In this document: one piece after another, positions 4,645-30,045 of the stretch
How the letters are laid out: each line of letters opens with the position of its first letter
Numbering within the stretch: the stretch's first letter is position 1
From: Verrucomicrobiaceae bacterium
Lineage (GTDB): Bacteria; Verrucomicrobiota; Verrucomicrobiia; Verrucomicrobiales; Verrucomicrobiaceae
Direction: 5' to 3'
DNA: 64,000 bases
NCBI GenBank assembly: GCA_019694165.1
Contig: JAIBCL010000007.1
Coordinates: 124,001-188,000 of the forward strand
Position numbers and translations under genes: made by a program
The notes under the pieces: generated by a model
Seen by the model: the letters and a program-made list of their open reading frames with translations, nothing else
What the model was told of the DNA's origin: nothing
The model's database searches: none

Positions 4645-4702
4645 TCCCGTCATCTCCAGTTACACCAGCCTTGCATCGACATTCCCAACTCTTCACACTG
4701 CC

Positions 4703-7700
4703 ATGAAACACCAACGCCCAAAGTTCATGAACGAAGTTGCTCCCCACCCACTCACTTTGTTGTTCGGTGACATTGTCGGCTCCGTGGACCTCAAGCGGAC
4801 GCTTGGCGAGGTGAAAGCCGCCCACATGATCGAGCGTGTGGGCGCGATATTCTCCGAGTGCTGCCAAGCTACCAGTGGCGACTACCTCGACAACGCCGGT
4901 GACGGTTACTTCGCCACCTTTACTGCGCCGAGTGCTGCGGTGCATTGCGGCTTGCTGTTTCTCTGGCGTTTGGAACGTGAACCGTGGGAGCATGGTCCTG
5001 TTCAAGTTCGTGTCGCCGCTCATGTTGGCGAGATCAAGGTTCAGGTTCTCGATCACAGCCGCAATCAACGCAAACCCAGTGGCCTAGCTGTGGACATCGC
5101 AGCAAGGGTCATGAATCTCGATGTCCCGGGCCGCTTCTTCCTGACCTATGAAACCTCTGCCATTGCCCGAGGACATGGCAGTCTCCGCACGGAGAGTGAT
5201 GGGCCGCTTGGGATTGGTGAGATTGCAAAATGGGAGCCCTTCAACCACGGCTACTACGGCTTCAAAGGCGGTTTTGTGCCCGGCAGTGAGTCTGCGGATG
5301 GCGGCGCCCTCTTGATTCCGCCCGAGGAACCGCTGCAGATATGCGAGGCAGTCATGGCTGGGCGTCAGCCGCTGCGTCCTTCTCCGACCTCGGAGAAATG
5401 CTGGCCCGTCGATCGTCTGTGGAACCGCCTGACAAAGCCAGAAGACCCTGTCCCCGAGATTCGTGAAGGCCAGTTGGTGCCGGGAAACACCGGTGGCGCA
5501 TGGGTCATCGAGCGTTCGCTTGGGCGGGGCGGCTTCGGTGAGGCATGGTTGGCAGAGGATCGAGATCGCCCTGGCGAATATCGCGTCTTCAAATTCCCCA
5601 ACGACCCTCAGCGCGTCCGTTCCTTCTTCCGCGAGGAGAAGCTCGCACGCATCCTTGACCGCGAAATCAGCGGCCTGAACGATCAGAAGGGCATTGTGAA
5701 GGTTCTCGGCATGTCTCGCGAGAGCCCCATGTGGATCGCCACCGACTTTTATCCACACGGCAGTCTCGTGGATTGGGTGCAGGAAAATCCAGAAGCCTTT
5801 GCTGCATTGCCAAGGCCCGAGCGCATACGTTTCATCATCGAGCTGGCCCGCATCGTCCAGCGTGCGCATGAGGTCGGCGTCATTCACAAAGACATCAAGC
5901 CCAGCAACATCTTCATCCGCATGGATGTCGATGGGACCATCCACCCCGTTCTCGCTGACTTCGGCATCGGCTGCATCGTCCGCCAGGAACTCCTCGACAA
6001 ACACGGCCCCCAGCACAGCGGGAATTCCGGCCTGATCACTGTCATCGGCAGCAGCCGCACCGGCACCAGCATCTATTCACCGCAGGAGTATCTGAAGCCG
6101 GATGCCACTCCCACGGCAAAGGGTGATGTCTTTGCTCTCGGCAAGGTGCTCTACCAGTTCATCATCGGCGACCTCACCGAACCAGCCTACAGCGCCAGGG
6201 AATGCCGCCGCCGTGTTTCGGACGAGTTCTTGTTCCAGGTCATCGACAAGGCGGTGGAAGTCGAGAGCGCGCGTTTTGAGTCTGCTGAGGAGCTTGCCCG
6301 GAAACTGGAGTGTCTCGAAGAGGATCGCGCAGCCTCGCGCGAGGCGGAATTGCGCGAACAGCTAGCCCGGCAGACCAAGCTCAGGGAAGAAGCCGATCAC
6401 CTTGCTTCACTGGCAAAAGAAGCTGAGACGAATGCGAAACTCGCCCAGTCGGAAGCCGAACGCAGAAGCCGCTTGTTTCGTTGGGCGGCCGTTTTGGTCG
6501 GCTGCCTGATGCTCATTGCAGTCGCGCTGGCTGTTACCGCGAAGCAGAGCCAGCTAAAGGAGGCGGAGCAAAAACAACTGGCGGTCAAGGCTCAAGAAGC
6601 TGCTGAGCGCAACCGGCAACGCGCCTCCAGCACGATCGACCAGATGGGCACGCGCCTGATCGAGATGAAGGAAGAGACCTGGAGCGACACCCGGTCAAAC
6701 ATGGCCGCTGACATCGACCAATTTGAGGAAGATCAGCCTGACGACTGGTCCCATCCTGAGTGGATGTTGGAACGGGCGATCCGGCTCAAGCTACGGGCCT
6801 ACGTTGCTTCAAACGTTCTCACGGGTTCGGACGGCGGGACTGTTGAAAGCGGACGGCGGACGAAAGCATTGAATCTGCGCCTGCGGGCGTTGGAGATTCT
6901 CAGGAAGCTGTGTGCATCGAAACCGTCTGATGACCGATGCGCGCAGGAATACGCCGAAGAACTTTTGCTGCTGGCCACAAATGACGGCTTTGACGAGTCA
7001 GCTTTGTTCGATCTCGATAGCGACGGCAAGGATCGGGCAATGCGCCTCGGCTTGCTGGACCCGATGCCGGGACCTCTTCGCTACGCCGATGCTCTGAGCA
7101 TCTTTTCCACCCGTTGCATTCAAGAAGGCCTTCGCCTCGTGCGGTCAAGGCGAGGAGTCAGTTTGGGGCCGCTGCTCGATCCCTGTTCGTGGCGGGTGTG
7201 GGAGGGATATTTCGGGGGGCTGCGGGCTAGCCAGATGCTCACGACAGGCACTGTGGAGATTGATCTTGGCGGCGTCACCGCCTTCTTCGGAGAGAGAAGG
7301 CCTGGATCCCCGGTATTCGCTGGTATCGACATGACAAACCGCAGCCTTGCGTGGCTGAACCTCCAGTTGCCGGCAGATTGGCGATTCAATCACGACTCGC
7401 CCGATTGCCTCCTCATCTCCGCCGCAAACTGTTTTCTCGAGTCACCTAAGGCGACGCGATGGGACTATTGGTCCGATTTGAACCAGGCAGCGAAGGACAA
7501 GGGCCTTTCCCCGTTCGAGCAGCGTGTCTTTGCCCGCAGTTTATTAGTCAAATGCAAGGTGTCGTATCGTGTGTTTCAACAATTGCGAAAGCGCGGCCTT
7601 ACCGATCGAAACGCCTTGCTGCGATTCGCGGCAGATTCGCTAGCCAACGCAATGGCACTCAACCCGAGCGATCCGAAGAAGGGACAGGGGCTCTTTTCCC

Positions 7701-23860: not shown

Positions 23861-24595
23861 TTACTTCACCGGTGCCGCGTTCCATATCGTGAGATCGTCG
23901 AAGAAGCCGTCCTTCCCCATGCAGCCGAATTCGACCTTGGACTTGGTGAGGTGGGCGATGCCGGGGGATTGGAGGTAGGCGACGGGCTGGCCGTCGATGG
24001 TGGCGCGCATGGTGTCGCCCACGGTTTCGAGCATGAAGGTGTGCCAGATCTGGGGATCGAGGCTGAGCGGGAAGGACACATTCTTGCGGCCTTTGGGCGT
24101 GGGCGGTTCGCCGGTGGCGCCTTCGGGGCGGGCGACGGCGAGGCCTTTCTGGTCCACGAGGATGATCTTGTCTGCCGCGATGCGCGCCATGCAGAGGTGT
24201 CCGTAGTGCGAGCCGTTGAACTTCCGGTCGTCAAACTCCGCCGTGACGGACTGCGCGCCGCCGAGCTTGAAGCGGAACTCGATCACGCTGTCCTTCGTCG
24301 GGATGTCGTTGCCGATGACGGCCTGATGCCCTTTCACCGCGGGCTTGCCATCCTTCGCCGGGGTGTCGAAGCGCATCTGCATGCCCTTCAGCGTGCCGTT
24401 CTCGAGGGCATACGTCGGCACCACGATGGCCCAGCCCTTGTCCTTGCCCAACTCCGCGCGCTCGAAGTCATCGGAGAAGAGCAGTTCCTTCTTTTTCGCG
24501 ATCGGCTCCGTGGGAATGGAGGGCAGCTTCGGCGCATCGGCGGCAAAGGTGGTGGCGGTGACAAGGCAGGCGAGCGTGAGGAAGCGGAGATTCAT
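23861..24595 (-). CDS. Secreted protein with LamG/DUF1080-like fold (tentative)
   Basis: A 244-residue exported protein with signal peptide MNLRFLTLACLVTATTFA-A and a single beta-rich domain. DDFERAELGKDKGWAIVVP opens the domain and KVEFGCMGKDGFFDDLTIW closes it. That is the pattern of concanavalin/LamG-type jelly rolls (DUF1080-like), common in secreted proteins of Verrucomicrobiota and Planctomycetota. No catalytic residues can be assigned. The first 340 bases, from the start codon, are duplicated as a broken copy at 25841-26180 on the other side of a yhcG gene. Confidence 0.7.
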   Translation of the reverse strand: MNLRFLTLACLVTATTFAADAPKLPSIPTEPIAKKKELLFSDDFERAELGKDKGWAIVVPTYALENGTLKGMQMRFDTPAKDGKPAVKGHQAVIGNDIPTKDSVIEFRFKLGGAQSVTAEFDDRKFNGSHYGHLCMARIAADKIILVDQKGLAVARPEGATGEPPTPKGRKNVSFPLSLDPQIWHTFMLETVGDTMRATIDGQPVAYLQSPGIAHLTKSKVEFGCMGKDGFFDDLTIWNAAPVK

Positions 24596-24600
24596 GGGGC
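24260..24600. repeat. Direct repeat, intact copy (5' part of secreted-protein gene)
   Basis: 341 bases matching 25841-26180 in the same orientation with about 17 differences by eye (about 95% identity), including one single-base indel. Homology begins just outside the start codon (TTCATGGGGC on the plus strand) and stops at codon about 113. Confidence 0.9.
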
Positions 24601-24634: not shown

Positions 24635-25735
24635 TCATTGAGTTTTCCTGGCCGTTCGCTTCTCTGCTTTGACATCGCTCAGAGCGAGTCGTTGTCGTGC
24701 GCGAACTACCGCTTGGTGGAGCTTTTGTTCGAGCTGCTTCTTGGGCAGCAGTTTCGTCCAGTAAGCCGCCACATGGATGCCGCTGCTGGCGAGTTCGAGC
24801 AGTTCGACATGCTCATCGTTCTTGCCCGCGCAGAGGATCATGCCCAGCGGCGCTCCTTCGGCGGGTTCGACGGCGTGGCGTTTGAGCCAGCCGAGATACA
24901 GCTCCATCTGCCCTTTGTCCGCTGCCTCGAAGTCGCCGAGCTTCAGATCAATCGCGACGAGCCGCTTGAGCTTCCGATGGTAGAACAGAAGATCGAGGTA
25001 GTAGTCCTTCGAATCAATCTGCATCCGCTTCTGTCGCTCCAGGAAGGCGAAGCCAATGCCGAGTTCGAGGATGAAGCTCTCCACCTCGCGCAAGATCGCC
25101 GACTCCACGTCCTTCTCGGCATAGGTGTCCTTCAGCCCGAGGAAATCGAGGATGTAGGGATCGCGAAAGACGAGGTCAGGCGTCAGCTTGTCCTCGCTGC
25201 GCAGGGCGGCGAGTTCCTGCTTGATGAGCTTGTCGGGCTTCTTGGAGAGCGCCGTGCGCTCATAGAGCATGCTCTTGATCTTCTGCTCCAGAGTCCGCGT
25301 GCTCCAGTTCTCGATGCGACACATCTCGGCGTAGAAGTCGCGTTGGAGCGGGTCGTCGAGGCGGACGATATGAAGGAAATGTGTCCAGCCCAATTTTGAC
25401 ATCAGTGATGTCAAAATCTGTCGGTCCGGGAATGCCTCGGCAAAGCGGATCATGCGGGCAAGGTTTCGCTCGCCAAACCCACGACCAAACTCGGCCTCCA
25501 ATTTTGCACTCAGTGCGGACAAAATCTGCTCGCCATACTCGGCCCGCTTCTCTTGGAGAATGTCCCGCCGAATGCGAGTGCCAATCTCCCAATAGAGGAG
25601 CGTCAGACCCGCGTTGACGGTCCGGGCGACGGCTTCGCGAGCCGTGAGGATGAGTTCGCGGACATCCGCAAGCAGCGGCACGGCAAGGGCGGCGGGCTTG
25701 GGAGCTAGCGTGCGAGGCTTGGGCTTTGCGGGCAT
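24635..25735 (-). CDS. yhcG: YhcG/DUF1016-family PD-(D/E)xK nuclease, copy 1
   Basis: A 366-residue protein of the YhcG (DUF1016) family. The N-terminal helical domain (about residues 20-150) shows LTLLYWEIGTRI, YGEQILSALSAKL, EFGRGFGERNLARMIRFAEAF and LGWTHFLHIV. The C-terminal PD-(D/E)xK nuclease-like domain (about 205-330) shows ILRELESF-like helix, then DYYLDLLFYHRKLKRLVAIDLKLG and KGQMELYLGWL. Conserved Asp in YLDLLF and the D-x-K in IDLKLG take the usual catalytic positions. The family is associated with mobile and defence loci, but its substrate is not established. The gene sits between two copies of a 341-bp direct repeat, with one perfect palindrome inside it (25394-25418) and another 45 bases upstream. 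Confidence 0.88.
   Translation of the reverse strand: MPAKPKPRTLAPKPAALAVPLLADVRELILTAREAVARTVNAGLTLLYWEIGTRIRRDILQEKRAEYGEQILSALSAKLEAEFGRGFGERNLARMIRFAEAFPDRQILTSLMSKLGWTHFLHIVRLDDPLQRDFYAEMCRIENWSTRTLEQKIKSMLYERTALSKKPDKLIKQELAALRSEDKLTPDLVFRDPYILDFLGLKDTYAEKDVESAILREVESFILELGIGFAFLERQKRMQIDSKDYYLDLLFYHRKLKRLVAIDLKLGDFEAADKGQMELYLGWLKRHAVEPAEGAPLGMILCAGKNDEHVELLELASSGIHVAAYWTKLLPKKQLEQKLHQAVVRARQRLALSDVKAEKRTARKTQ
25394..25418. repeat. Perfect 25-nt palindrome inside yhcG copy 1
   Basis: Arms ATTTTGACATCA and TGATGTCAAAAT around a single central G. It falls in the codons for QILTSLMSKLG, just before the conserved GWTH motif, the same site in the protein as the hairpin array of the second yhcG gene. 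Confidence 0.85.
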
Positions 25736-25779: not shown

Positions 25780-25804
25780 ATTGTCTCCGCAGTGCGGAGA
25801 CAAT
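25780..25804. repeat. Perfect 25-nt palindrome upstream of yhcG copy 1
   Basis: Arms ATTGTCTCCGCA and TGCGGAGACAAT around a central G, 44 bases upstream of the yhcG start and 36 bases from the direct-repeat boundary. Same geometry (12-bp arms, one-base centre) as the palindromes inside the yhcG genes. It could be an operator or a mobile-unit end. Confidence 0.85.
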
Positions 25805-25840
25805 CCGCAGCAGAATAGACGGCGGCTATGCCAGTGCGTC

Positions 25841-26180
25841 GCCGAGCTTGAAGCGGAACTCGATCACGCTGTCCTTCGTCGGGATGTCGTTGCCGATGAC
25901 CGCCTGATGCCCTTTTACCGGGGGCTTGCCATCCTTCGCCGGGGTGTCGAAGCGCATCTGCATGCCCTTCAGCGTGCCGTTCTCGAGCGCATACGTCGGC
26001 ACCACGATGGCCCAGCCCTTGTCCTTGCCCAGCTCGGCGCGCTCGAAGTCATCGGCGAAGAGCAGTTCCTTCTTCTTCGCGATCGGCTCCGTGGGAATCG
26101 AGGGCAACTTCGGCGCATCGGCGGCGAAGGCGGTGGCAGTGACCAGGCAGGCGAGCGTGAGAAGCGGACGTTCATGGGGC
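25841..26180 (-). pseudogene. Truncated, frameshifted copy of the 23861-24595 secreted-protein gene
   Basis: On the minus strand the start codon (26175) is kept, but one base is lost in codon 6 (CGCTTCCTCACG in the intact gene, CGCTTCTCACG here). This destroys the signal peptide frame. The correct frame then resumes as LPSIPTEPIAKKKELLF and ends at FKLGDALA, about codon 113, where the homology stops. It keeps about 95% identity to the intact copy, so the duplication is not ancient. Confidence 0.9.
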
Positions 26181-26315: not shown

Positions 26316-26425
26316 CCCCTTTTCCAACCTCGATTCTCTGGGAATAACCGAACGAGGTGCGTTCACAACGCGTTGATGGAGCCTAGCCCGGCTGATGTGA
26401 TCTGCCCGAGCGCTAAGAGTCCTTG

Positions 26426-28774
26426 ATGGCAGGCCAAATGCATTCCAAAGATTCATTAATCATGTCCATCCTGAATACTGACACGCCAGAAATTGGTCCG
26501 AGACTCAAGCCGCATGGAAGAGCCAAAGTCTATGTGAGCTATGCTCACCGTGATGCAAAGCATCTGAAGAAGCTGGAGGTAGAACTGACCGTGCTTTTGC
26601 ATCAGGGGTTGATTGAGGCGGTTTGGCATGATCAACACCTGGACCCAGGAGACAAGTGGCACGATCAAATCAACGCTAAACTCGAGGACGCGGATGTGAT
26701 CATTCTGCTTATCAGCGCTGCGTCCCTTGCTTCTAACTACATCACGCAAAAGGAGATACCGCACGCACTTCAAAAGTATGAGCGTCAGAGTGCCATTTTG
26801 ATACCGATCATTCTGGAGCGGTGTTCATGGTCAAGAACGGAACTTGGTAAGTTCTTTGTGCTGCCGACTGGAGGCAAACCTGTTGTGGAGTGGAAGCCTC
26901 AATCAAAAGCCTGGCATAACGTGGGGGGTGAACTGAGACGGGTCTTCGAACTCTTCAATCAAAGGGTGGTCACCGTCGGCGAAGCCGAATTGGATAACGA
27001 GCAGCCGCCCGTGACAGTTGAACCTTCTAGCGAAGACTCTTCAGCCACAAACAGTGAAGTTCGAGTTGGGCCAAGAGGGTCAAATCTGACCGACGGTCGA
27101 GCCATGCAGGATCAAGCTAGCGCAACGGACTCTATGGGGCGCTCTGAAATGATTGTTGCGCTCGCAGATTTCATTTCGTCGAAAGATTCCGTTCCCCCGC
27201 TCTCAGTGACTATCGAAGCCCCGTGGGGCGAGGGTAAGAGCAGTGCCATGGTGCAGCTCAGGCGATACTTGGCTGTTCATAAGCTGAGCCAAACGATTTG
27301 GTTCAACCCATGGCGATACACTGAACCAGAAGCGCTATGGAGCGGATTTTTGGCCGAATTCACTGAACAAATTCAAAAGGGGAAATCTCTCTTCGCCAAG
27401 TTTTTGATACAGCACCGCTACCTGCAGGCGACTTATGGCAGGTGGGTGTTGTTGAGGTGTTTCGGGGCCATTATGGCTGTCCCTATTTTGTTCTATTTGG
27501 TGCGGTGGTGGCTCCTTTCACAATTGCCAAGCCTCGCTGATGGCTGGAGTTCGTGGCTGGGCCAGATTGCTGCTATTGTGGCAGCTTGGGGTTCCTCAGT
27601 TTTCGTCGCCGCAAAGCTTTGGTTCGCATTTCACAAGCCAGTCCGAACGCTTGGCGCTGAACTTAAGGCATACTTCAGTCAACCTGACTACGCCGCCAAA
27701 CGAGGCAGCAGTGAACGTCTCCATCGTGAATTTCGCGCATGGCTCGTCGCTTGTAATAGGCCAGGGGAGCGCATCTTTGTGTTTATCGACGACCTAGATC
27801 GCTGCGCTGGTTCGCGCGCTGCGGAGCTGCTGGATTGGCTGCAACTTATGATGTCCAATATTGGCGATGGGAGCAATGACCCTTTCCCGCTAGTTGTGGT
27901 TGCTGGTTTAGATCGCGAGAAAGTGGCAGCGGCCGTTGCGATGCGCCAAAGTGAAATGATGCCGATCCTTGCTCCAGGCGATACAGCACGCGAGAAAGCC
28001 GAAGCAGCCATTATTTGGGGTTACGGATACTTGGAAAAATTTGTAGATTTGCCTGTTAGATTACCGCCTGGATCAGCGCATGTGTTGGAATCATTTTTGG
28101 CCGATCTCGCGCCAGAGGCAGTCGAATCTGAAAAGCGGTTAATGGAGGTGCAGCGCAAGAATGCAGAGGCCGCTCGCACTCTTCGCCTCGGCAACCTAGC
28201 AAAGACGTTTGACAAAACAATCCCAACACCAGCAAGTGATAACGAGAAACCCGAGGCTGGGGACGGAGTCGAAGCCCCCCTACTGTCTCATGAAGGTGAG
28301 GATTGGAGGGTTCCTGGTCTACTCAGGTCCGCCGCCGTTTGGCTGAATCATAGTCCACGGCGTATCAAACACTTTTTGAACCTTCTAAGATTACGTTGGG
28401 CTGTGCGGAGACGACTTGGAGAAGATCGAATGACACTGGAACTAACGGCGAGGCTTGTTCTGGTTGAAACTGCCCGTCCTACACTTTTTCGAGCTATTGC
28501 TGATCACTCATCAGTTAGAGCGGCCCTTTTTGAGCAGCAAAGTGAAGAGAGCCCCGGAATTTTCCGTCGTGATGGCCGTTGGATGGAAGTATTGGGATCT
28601 CAAGTGTTTGATGCTGACAAGGATTGGTTGAGCAAACATGGCGAAGCTGTCCTGGTTGATGATTGGGATGATATACTGCACGATCACCCTGAAAGCAGTC
28701 CCTCTGAGCGGGATGAGTTTGCTCTTACACGCGACGCACTTGATGCATTGATCGACGGGACACTATACCGCTAG
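26426..28774 (+). CDS. TIR-KAP P-loop NTPase (candidate defence protein)
   Basis: About 782 residues. Residues about 33-165 form a TIR domain: AKVYVSYAHRDAKHLKKLEV, WHDQHLDPGDKWHDQI, VIILLISAASLASNYITQKE. The Glu in the last segment sits at the usual NADase catalytic position. Residues about 240-680 form a KAP-family NTPase: Walker A APWGEGKSSAMV, TIWFNPWRY, two inserted membrane helices (about 348-400), Walker B FVFIDDLDRC, and RRIKHFLNLLRLRW. TIR domains commonly act as NAD+ hydrolases after infection sensing, and KAP NTPases are recurrent in phage defence. The codon and base composition is more AT-rich than the neighbours, suggesting transfer. Start codon uncertain (ATG 26426, 26438 or 26462, all before the TIR fold). 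It is convergent with yhcG copy 2 (5-base gap). Confidence 0.88.
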   Translation: MAGQMHSKDSLIMSILNTDTPEIGPRLKPHGRAKVYVSYAHRDAKHLKKLEVELTVLLHQGLIEAVWHDQHLDPGDKWHDQINAKLEDADVIILLISAASLASNYITQKEIPHALQKYERQSAILIPIILERCSWSRTELGKFFVLPTGGKPVVEWKPQSKAWHNVGGELRRVFELFNQRVVTVGEAELDNEQPPVTVEPSSEDSSATNSEVRVGPRGSNLTDGRAMQDQASATDSMGRSEMIVALADFISSKDSVPPLSVTIEAPWGEGKSSAMVQLRRYLAVHKLSQTIWFNPWRYTEPEALWSGFLAEFTEQIQKGKSLFAKFLIQHRYLQATYGRWVLLRCFGAIMAVPILFYLVRWWLLSQLPSLADGWSSWLGQIAAIVAAWGSSVFVAAKLWFAFHKPVRTLGAELKAYFSQPDYAAKRGSSERLHREFRAWLVACNRPGERIFVFIDDLDRCAGSRAAELLDWLQLMMSNIGDGSNDPFPLVVVAGLDREKVAAAVAMRQSEMMPILAPGDTAREKAEAAIIWGYGYLEKFVDLPVRLPPGSAHVLESFLADLAPEAVESEKRLMEVQRKNAEAARTLRLGNLAKTFDKTIPTPASDNEKPEAGDGVEAPLLSHEGEDWRVPGLLRSAAVWLNHSPRRIKHFLNLLRLRWAVRRRLGEDRMTLELTARLVLVETARPTLFRAIADHSSVRAALFEQQSEESPGIFRRDGRWMEVLGSQVFDADKDWLSKHGEAVLVDDWDDILHDHPESSPSERDEFALTRDALDALIDGTLYR

Positions 28775-28779
28775 ACGGC

Positions 28780-30045
28780 TCAGCGGGAAGCAGCGGCGCT
28801 CCACTCATCAAGCTTCTGCTTCAGCAGTTCTTTGGAGGGCAGGTAGAGCGAATACTCCTTCGCGTGGATGTTGGCGTCTTTCGGCAGGGTGAGTTCGACG
28901 ACGGTCTTTTTGGCGGATTTACAGAGGAGGAGGCCGATGGTGGGGTTTTCGTCGGGGAGCTTCACCTCGCGGTCGTAGTAGTTCACATACATCTGCATCT
29001 GGCCGAGGTCCTGATGCGTGAGCTTGTCGAGCTTGAGATCAATGATGACGTAGCAGCGGAGGAGGCGGTTGTAGAAGACGAGGTCCACGAAGTAGTGGTC
29101 CTCATCGAAGGTGAAGCGCTTCTGCCGGGCCTCGAAGAGGAAGCCTTTGCCAAGCTCCAGGAGGAAGTGCTCGAGGCGTCCGATGATGGCGTGCTCGAGG
29201 TCGGTCTCGGTGTAGCTGGTCTTTTCATCGAGGCCGAGGAACTCGAGCACGAGCGGCTCCTTCAAGAGGTCCTCGGGCCGGGTGATGAGCTGGCCTTCCT
29301 TCGCAAGCCGCCGGATGCCTTCCTTGTCCCGGCTGAGGGCGAGGCGCTCGTAGAGGCAGGAGGCTTTCTGGCGCTTGAGTTCGGGCACGGACCAACCGGC
29401 GTTGGTGGCCTCGATCTCGTAGAAGCTGCGTTCGTCGGGGTCTTTGATGGTGAGGAGCAGGACGTAGTGGGACCAGCTCATTGTGAAGGGGTTTCCCAAT
29501 TTCCGAGAAGCTGTCTCGGAAATCGCCAATTGGTCAGTCGCTGTCTGACCAATTTGGAGCGGCACCAATTTCCCAATAGGTTGTTGGGGAATCTCGATGG
29601 CTTCAGATTTGCCAACAGGCTGCTGGCGAATTTGAATCGGATCCAATTGCCCAGAAGCCTTCTGGGCAATTCGCCCTTCCAAAGATTGCCCAGAAGGCTT
29701 CTGGGCAATTGGGGGAACTCGGTCCTGCCACTCCAGATAGAAGCGCCGCATGTATTCGAGGTTGGCCTTCGAGAACCCTCTCCCGAACTCCTCCGTGAGC
29801 CGCGCTGAAAGCTCCTTCAGCAACTCCGCGCCATACGCCGCGCGCTTGGCTCCCTTTTGCTCGTGCTCGACAATGCGGCGGCCGATTTCGAAGTTGGTCA
29901 TCACCTGGAAGGTGTCCACGACGGTGGAAACGCCGCGTCGGGCGCTCTGGATGAGCTGGCGGACTTCGGTGAGGAGGGAGGTGAGGCCGTCCGGCTTCGT
30001 TTTGGCCGGGGTGATCGCTTTTTTGGAGACGGACGGCTTTTTCAT
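28780..30045 (-). CDS. yhcG: YhcG/DUF1016-family PD-(D/E)xK nuclease, copy 2, with in-frame hairpin array
   Basis: A 421-residue YhcG paralogue, only distantly similar to copy 1. The N-terminal helical domain has FEIGRRIVEHEQKG, YGAELLKELSARL, EFGRGFSKANLEYMRRFYL and MSWSHYVLLLTIKD. The C-terminal nuclease domain has EHFLLELGKGFLFEARQKRF, HYFVDLVFYNRLLRCYVIID, LKLDKL and QMQMYVNYYD. Between RRFYLEW and MSWSHY lies an extra segment of about 75 residues made of six variant units of the form I-x-Q-x-x-S-x-(K/Q)-L (IAQKPSGQ, IAQKASGQ, IRQQPVGK, IPQQPIGK, IGQTATDQ, ISETASRK), each encoded by a DNA palindrome. It is 3 bases from the thiC stop side. Confidence 0.88.
   Translation of the reverse strand: MKKPSVSKKAITPAKTKPDGLTSLLTEVRQLIQSARRGVSTVVDTFQVMTNFEIGRRIVEHEQKGAKRAAYGAELLKELSARLTEEFGRGFSKANLEYMRRFYLEWQDRVPPIAQKPSGQSLEGRIAQKASGQLDPIQIRQQPVGKSEAIEIPQQPIGKLVPLQIGQTATDQLAISETASRKLGNPFTMSWSHYVLLLTIKDPDERSFYEIEATNAGWSVPELKRQKASCLYERLALSRDKEGIRRLAKEGQLITRPEDLLKEPLVLEFLGLDEKTSYTETDLEHAIIGRLEHFLLELGKGFLFEARQKRFTFDEDHYFVDLVFYNRLLRCYVIIDLKLDKLTHQDLGQMQMYVNYYDREVKLPDENPTIGLLLCKSAKKTVVELTLPKDANIHAKEYSLYLPSKELLKQKLDEWSAAASR
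29500..29709. repeat. Regular array of six in-frame palindromes in yhcG copy 2
   Basis: Arms and centres on the plus strand: TTTCCGAGA/TCTCGGAAA (centre 29511); AATTGGTCAG/CTGACCAATT (29541); ATTTCCCAA/TTGGGGAAT (29580, one T-G); ATTTGCCA/TGGCGAAT (29619, one T-G); AATTGCCCAGAAG/CTTCTGGGCAATT (29658); ATTGCCCAGAAG/CTTCTGGGCAAT (29697). Centre spacings are 30, 39, 39, 39, 39 bases, that is 10 or 13 codons, so every hairpin is in the same phase of the frame. Arm sequences differ between units while the pairing is kept. Confidence 0.92.

Follow-up and report, generated by a model that had tools for sequence, protein, structure and literature searches.

Genes of the DUF1016/YhcG family, which ranges over bacteria at large and some archaea, carry within their coding sequence one to seven 25-nt palindromes of the form ATT-n9-S-n9-AAT, located in the stretch that encodes the linker or helix ahead of the (S/G)W(S/T)H motif. 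These palindromes are an inherited, position-specific part of the genes. What is conserved in them is the DNA pairing and not the peptide, because the excess of hairpins is found with the protein held fixed, arms pair with their own partners, and in some Bacteroidales the palindrome lies in another reading frame. Letters that change while the ability to fold back is kept probably point to a hidden function at the level of DNA, as a site of recombination or mobility.

A multi-copy form is seen in the window, the 64,000-nt stretch of a Verrucomicrobiaceae genome that was analysed here. Both yhcG copies of the window contain DUF1016_N and YhcG_C domains above the Pfam cut-offs and retain the family-invariant residues. 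For copy 2, which hosts the array, the matches are to PF17761 (E 4e-37), PF06250 (E 3e-50) and the PADLOC entry PDC-S02 (E 1e-136). A sequence search of solved structures returned no relative, and an NCBIfam search gave no match. Six 25-nt palindromes occupy positions 29499-29709 of the minus strand, in the linker-coding stretch of copy 2 (Table 1). Their centres lie at 29697, 29658, 29619, 29580, 29541 and 29511, at spacings of 39, 39, 39, 39 and 30, and the centre base is the first position of a codon in all six; the array is made of multiplied 39-bp units, each consisting of a palindrome and a four-codon spacer. The insert of about 75 residues in the copy 2 protein is predicted to be disordered, with pLDDT <50 at residues 138-181. 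A direct recount bore out the number, spacing, shared codon phase and insert size given in an earlier note on this DNA, and its remark that the arms differ between units yet remain self-complementary also held: 63 of 72 arm positions are paired, as compared with 33.3 (sd 3.4, max 45) in 5000 synonymous-codon shuffles of the gene. The array strand folds 10.5 sd more stably than dinucleotide shuffles (z -10.5). Copy 1 has its single palindrome at the same protein site, as had been claimed. The array itself is thus real, but it had been taken as a feature of one gene copy, and the hairpins are a hallmark of the whole DUF1016/YhcG family. An assembly artefact as the source of the hairpins was ruled out by independent genomes.

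Table 1. Hairpins and host genes in the window. Arms are given on either side of the centre base, which stands in square brackets; pairing is the number of paired arm positions of 12.
Feature	Positions	Strand	Sequence or description	Pairing
yhcG copy 2, host of the array	28780..30045	minus	421 aa, DUF1016_N + YhcG_C PDDEXK nuclease gene	
Array hairpin 1	29685..29709	minus	ATTGCCCAGAAG[C]CTTCTGGGCAAT	12/12
Array hairpin 2	29646..29670	minus	ATTGCCCAGAAG[G]CTTCTGGGCAAT	12/12
Array hairpin 3	29607..29631	minus	ATTCGCCAGCAG[C]CTGTTGGCAAAT	10/12
Array hairpin 4	29568..29592	minus	ATTCCCCAACAA[C]CTATTGGGAAAT	9/12
Array hairpin 5	29529..29553	minus	ATTGGTCAGACA[G]CGACTGACCAAT	10/12
Array hairpin 6, closest to the MSWSHY codons	29499..29523	minus	ATTTCCGAGACA[G]CTTCTCGGAAAT	10/12
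yhcG copy 1	24635..25735	minus	366 aa, classical DUF1016 gene without the long insert	
Copy 1 single hairpin	25393..25417	minus	ATTTTGACATCA[C]TGATGTCAAAAT (whole: ATTTTGACATCACTGATGTCAAAAT)	12/12
Copy 1 weaker palindrome	25501..25525	minus	second classical site (about -126)	9/12 by direct reading
Non-coding class hairpin	25780..25804	minus	ATTGTCTCCGCA[C]TGCGGAGACAAT; 45 nt 5' of the copy 1 start	12/12

DUF1016 genes were taken from genome contigs, Verrucomicrobiota and Bacteroidota genomes, viral contigs and plasmids, and 249 non-redundant ORFs were kept; two plasmid-derived sequences were left out of the structure-prediction set. In the 241 genes with a mapped anchor, which come from many phyla, we scored the best hairpin at most 300 nt upstream of the invariant W codon of (S/G)W(S/T)H, and used as control 50 rounds of synonymous shuffling in which each protein was kept constant. 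Hairpins with at least 11 of 12 positions paired were found in 172 genes, where 3.3 were expected (max 8), and perfect hairpins in 98, where 0.12 were expected; 28 of the 241 lack a hairpin of at least 10/12. Downstream of the W codon, the same genes contain a total of 8 hairpins within 600 nt, which is near expectation. The excess holds when one representative is taken per 50%-identity cluster (18/24) or per 40% cluster (8/9), and hairpin density is 1.19/kb inside family ORFs versus 0.14/kb in the flanking DNA of the same loci. A family-wide excess of self-complementarity beyond what the repeated peptide brings, which the earlier note had singled out as the point to check, was therefore found. 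Of 20 classical genes, 13 have the single hairpin 18 nt ahead of the W codon, across phyla; unit number is variable even between close relatives, over the full range from 1 to 7. In a DUF1016 gene of another subfamily (L165:2520-2714), a single perfect palindrome (ATTCGCGGGACA/TGTCCCGCGAAT) occurs four times in tandem, at intervals of about 54-57 nt.

Conservation within the hairpins is unevenly distributed. The outer ATT/AAT is nearly fixed (82-95%), and the inner arms are diverse, with 209 different 8-nt cores among 332 hairpins. Left arms pair with their own right arm at 7.36 of 8 positions, as compared with 5.32 for another hairpin of the same gene and 3.22 for a hairpin of another gene. 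Changes that keep a pair while replacing two residues are seen between close relatives: T>G with A>C (L>W and Q>P) in L058/L061, and G>C with C>G (V>L and Q>E) in L135/L138. About 30 of the 332 hairpins, mostly from Bacteroidales, have the palindrome in another codon phase and encode unrelated peptides, such as NLVNTVDQI. Hairpins in the usual frame steer clear of the base opposite a TAA stop, and a compromise with coding can be seen in this. Selection on pairing itself rather than on one sequence, as the earlier note had supposed for the array, is strongly supported across the family by the excess over shuffled genes, the preference of arms for their own partners and the paired changes. Arms that are free to change while their pairing is kept would be the mark of structure-based recognition.

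RhuM (PF13310), whose genes are often near DUF1016/YhcG genes, shows the same phenomenon, a covarying and position-fixed coding hairpin. Its palindrome is its own, ending in CAACT/AGTTC or CAGTT/AACTG (loci L300-L329 and L026), and the site is fixed: in most genes with a recognised WL motif, the palindrome lies 116 nt from that motif. At least 11 of 12 positions are paired in 20 of 31 RhuM genes, where 0.83 were expected, and arms pair at 8.33 of 9 positions with their own partner versus 4.21 with those of other genes. Both families are listed by PADLOC as single-gene phage-defence candidates (DUF1016 as PDC-S02, RhuM as PDC-S05), and the parallel suggests a principle common to the two.

Comparison of E. 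coli genomes places the hairpins at the junctions of natural rearrangements, which may be insertions or losses. The yhcG gene of K-12 has three hairpins (11, 10 and 11 of 12 paired) and a degraded SWSH motif, with W changed to R; of 5,426 complete E. coli genomes, about 4,400 have the gene or a part of it. At the gltD-nanQ locus, 944 genomes have no yhcG and one class hairpin left between the flanks. In K-12 the same left flank and hairpin are followed by gltF-yhcADEF-yhcG, a second hairpin and the right flank, and both borders of the gltF-yhcG island thus bear hairpins. One genome, HH97, is cut at yhcG hairpin 1 and fused to the right flank, with a single hairpin remaining, and in 716 genomes (B type, including E. 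coli B) yhcG turns into foreign DNA exactly past hairpin 3. In these 716 genomes a foreign 101-aa ORF, annotated as a transposase, takes the place of the 3' part of yhcG (L331:3997-4302 in E. coli B). The intergenic hairpin at gltD-nanQ itself differs between strains by a compensated change, CTG/CAG versus CTC/GAG. These junctions, or some of them, could have arisen at short direct repeats, by slippage during replication or by homologous recombination. Deletions at hairpin 3 that are linked to IS1 (L332) were set aside as support, since IS1 explains them.

In the window, the copy 1 hairpin has its centre where classical genes usually have it, 18 nt from the W codon. The block shared with a related genome (L175/L367) ends at about 25800-25806, at the non-coding hairpin upstream of copy 1. 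Both in the window and in L367, the copy 1 unit lies between two versions of one neighbouring gene, a truncated and a full one, and the truncation points differ; in the window, a direct duplication of the start of the neighbouring gene (24255-24600 and 25836-26180, 346 bp, 94.8% identical) flanks yhcG copy 1. The arrangement at the 5' hairpin resembles the border of a unit that may be mobile or recombining. Between the two yhcG copies, positions 26423-28774 hold a gene with a TIR domain and a KAP P-loop NTPase, ThsB- and QatA-like in PADLOC, and because of it the stretch around both copies looks like a small defence island.

We tentatively favour a reading in which the hairpins would be hairpin or cruciform sites that are recognised by their structure and that the encoded nuclease, a junction-type PDDEXK enzyme, would use for recombination or mobility. 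The palindromes would act as DNA, extruded as hairpins from single-stranded and as cruciforms from double-stranded DNA; a cruciform formed by a perfect palindrome is a four-way junction. Recognition would be by shape plus the fixed ATT/AAT base, an arrangement that would leave the inner arms free to drift in pairs. The most likely recogniser would be the encoded protein, whose PDDEXK domain appears nearest to junction- and flap-type nucleases, though another protein could take this part. We infer that such sites may let the gene and adjoining DNA be excised, joined or inserted at the hairpins; the E. coli junctions, the internally deleted DUF1016 miniatures of a prophage contig (L353) and the block edge 5' of copy 1 speak for this. 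The top Foldseek matches of the YhcG nuclease domain are NucS/EndoMS (E 1.6e-4) and Bax1, and earlier fold recognition had placed YhcG near YraN and archaeal Holliday-junction resolvases (PMC1189080); the junction-nuclease character of YhcG is putative, a matter of fold resemblance. Of the readings offered in the earlier note, the best fit is a nuclease marking its own gene, or making use of it, as a putative role. A broader generalisation, which we regard as possible but doubtful, is that DUF1016/YhcG and RhuM are both 'self-sited' genes, each protein recognising by shape a family-specific hairpin in its own reading frame for recombination or mobility.

Autoregulation at the DNA level is an unlikely alternative. 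Here the helical N-terminal domain of YhcG would bind hairpins or cruciforms within its own gene and close to it, repressing or modulating transcription, and copies would multiply since more sites tighten control. The sites are found in the 5' half of the gene and in some cases in its 5' UTR (the non-coding hairpin of the window, and L026), the hairpins are specific to the gene family, and a potentially harmful nuclease would need control. However, the arms vary within one gene and remain self-complementary, which a dimeric operator does not need, and neither the E. coli junctions nor the miniature copies described below are explained.

The confinement of the hairpins to the family is strong, but not absolute beyond the genomes examined. 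In the 7.8-Mb genome from which the window comes, pattern matches were found only in yhcG, and the array is present in one copy. When 20 related genomes were scanned with the pattern and ten extra palindromic sites were opened, DUF1016 genes accounted for nine of the ten and a contig end for the other. Among 2.9 million viral contigs, 18 stretches matched the CAGAC-type pattern. Several of these belong to DUF1016 genes, two stand immediately 5' of RhuM, and one (L353) consists of two DUF1016 miniatures with internal deletions; the others lie elsewhere or are unassigned, and some viral contigs have class hairpins that do not adjoin a DUF1016 gene. In L353, a prophage contig, the two near-identical, MITE-like fragments with hairpins (4700-4880 and 6022-6200) flank a toxin-antitoxin-like gene pair. 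Another viral contig has two abutting class palindromes outside any recognised DUF1016 gene (L351:9938-9985), and L026 has detached hairpin arrays of about 100 bp, 83% identical, 5' of RhuM and of yhcG (1094-1175 and 2264-2348), which read in frame like a DUF1016 array. A dispersed REP/RPE element was rejected on the absence of further copies in the own genome and on the opened matches in related genomes, which are DUF1016 genes; the true palindromes opened there likewise leave a self-propagating in-frame hairpin, in the sense of a free element, unsupported.

An independent selfish palindromic element, REP/RPE-like, inserting in frame and specialised on DUF1016 (with another on RhuM), is quite improbable. 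It would suit the variation from 1 to 7 units between close relatives, the detached arrays of L026 and the isolated class hairpins in some viral contigs, but the classical hairpin is fixed at one distance from the W codon across phyla and not scattered, and palindrome matches in the own and related genomes fall in DUF1016 genes. No more probable is maintenance by mutation, in which template switching in quasi-palindromes repairs the arms, tandem slippage builds the arrays and the hairpin has no function. Such a process would produce paired two-sided changes like those of L058/L061, and variable copy number without selection; it does not account for recurrence at one site of one family in many phyla with near-background density elsewhere, and the near-fixed outer ATT/AAT is left unexplained.

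Hairpins in the mRNA that control translation, RNA decay or transcript stability are very improbable, even though the hairpins are on the coding strand and the RNA strand folds strongly. A helix in the sense RNA should favour G-U pairs over A-C mismatches, and a sense-mRNA role is disfavoured because the opposite was seen: at stem offsets 2-12 of the coding strand, DUF1016 hairpins have 48 G.T/T.G versus 84 A.C/C.A mismatches, and RhuM hairpins 2 versus 7, counts that codon constraints could bias. Watson-Crick pairing without an excess of wobble suits DNA better, and control of translation by mRNA structure, which the earlier note had also put forward, found no support. A peptide feature (the I-x-Q-x-x-S-x-K-L linker repeat) with the palindrome as a by-product of codon use deserves practically no credence, for although one frame and a loose peptide motif are common to most units, the peptide as sole cause is refuted by hairpins that vanish in synonymous shuffles preserving it, by the unrelated peptides of other frames and by paired changes that replace two residues together, and the linker is predicted to be disordered.

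The preferred reading, of sites recognised by structure, supplies a concrete substrate hypothesis for YhcG, a long-uncharacterised nuclease. If the broader, doubtful generalisation to 'self-sited' genes is true, DUF1016/YhcG and RhuM, catalogued as single-gene candidates for phage defence, would represent selfish or domesticated recombination genes of a new kind. A widespread family, E. coli K-12 included, bears a conserved DNA structure within its coding sequence, and K-12 yhcG makes direct testing possible. We found no description of such a structure in DUF1016/YhcG genes in the open PMC literature, in which Rickettsia palindromic elements (RPEs), REPs, PARCELs and the palindromes of Nematomorpha were found and nothing on DUF1016 or RhuM hairpins; subscription papers and preprints are mostly outside this coverage.

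Among known systems, IS200/IS605 elements and integron attC sites involve single-stranded DNA hairpins that are recognised by structure and not by sequence in recombination; these sites are at element ends and are acted on by HUH transposases or tyrosine recombinases. DUF1016 sites, in contrast, are mainly within coding sequence. At E. coli gltD-nanQ and at copy 1 of the window, hairpins are at the edges of putatively mobile units. REP/REPIN sequences with their RAYT (TnpA-REP) enzymes are similar in being short DNA hairpins, partly recognised by shape by a dedicated enzyme, and in having miniature derivatives; REPs are mostly extragenic, high in copy, tagged with GTAG or CGTC and served by an HUH enzyme (PMC8266576, PMC3116915). 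DUF1016 hairpins are few and intragenic, lying inside a nuclease gene, their consensus is untagged and the encoded enzyme is of the PDDEXK type. RPEs likewise are palindromic DNA inserted in frame in protein-coding genes that remain unbroken, but they are about 100-150 nt long and occur in many unrelated genes, intergenic DNA and RNAs (PMC4316617, PMC3733652); DUF1016 palindromes are 25 nt long, occupy a single site in a single gene family and change in sequence while staying paired, and spread over many unrelated genes and intergenic sites of one genome was seen neither in the own genome nor in 20 further ones. PARCELs (palindromic amphipathic repeat coding elements) are tandem in-frame coding repeats with dyad symmetry, found across phyla, which encode a conserved 25-residue amphipathic helix (PMC2996958), whereas DUF1016 units encode 13 residues (39 nt) of a linker predicted to be disordered, and their peptide and frame vary. 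The mitochondrial coding palindromes of Nematomorpha are also stringent and kept alongside protein coding, but they are long perfect repeats that occur in several mitochondrial genes within a single group of animals (PMC6649704), and those of DUF1016 are short, covarying and belong to one bacterial family.
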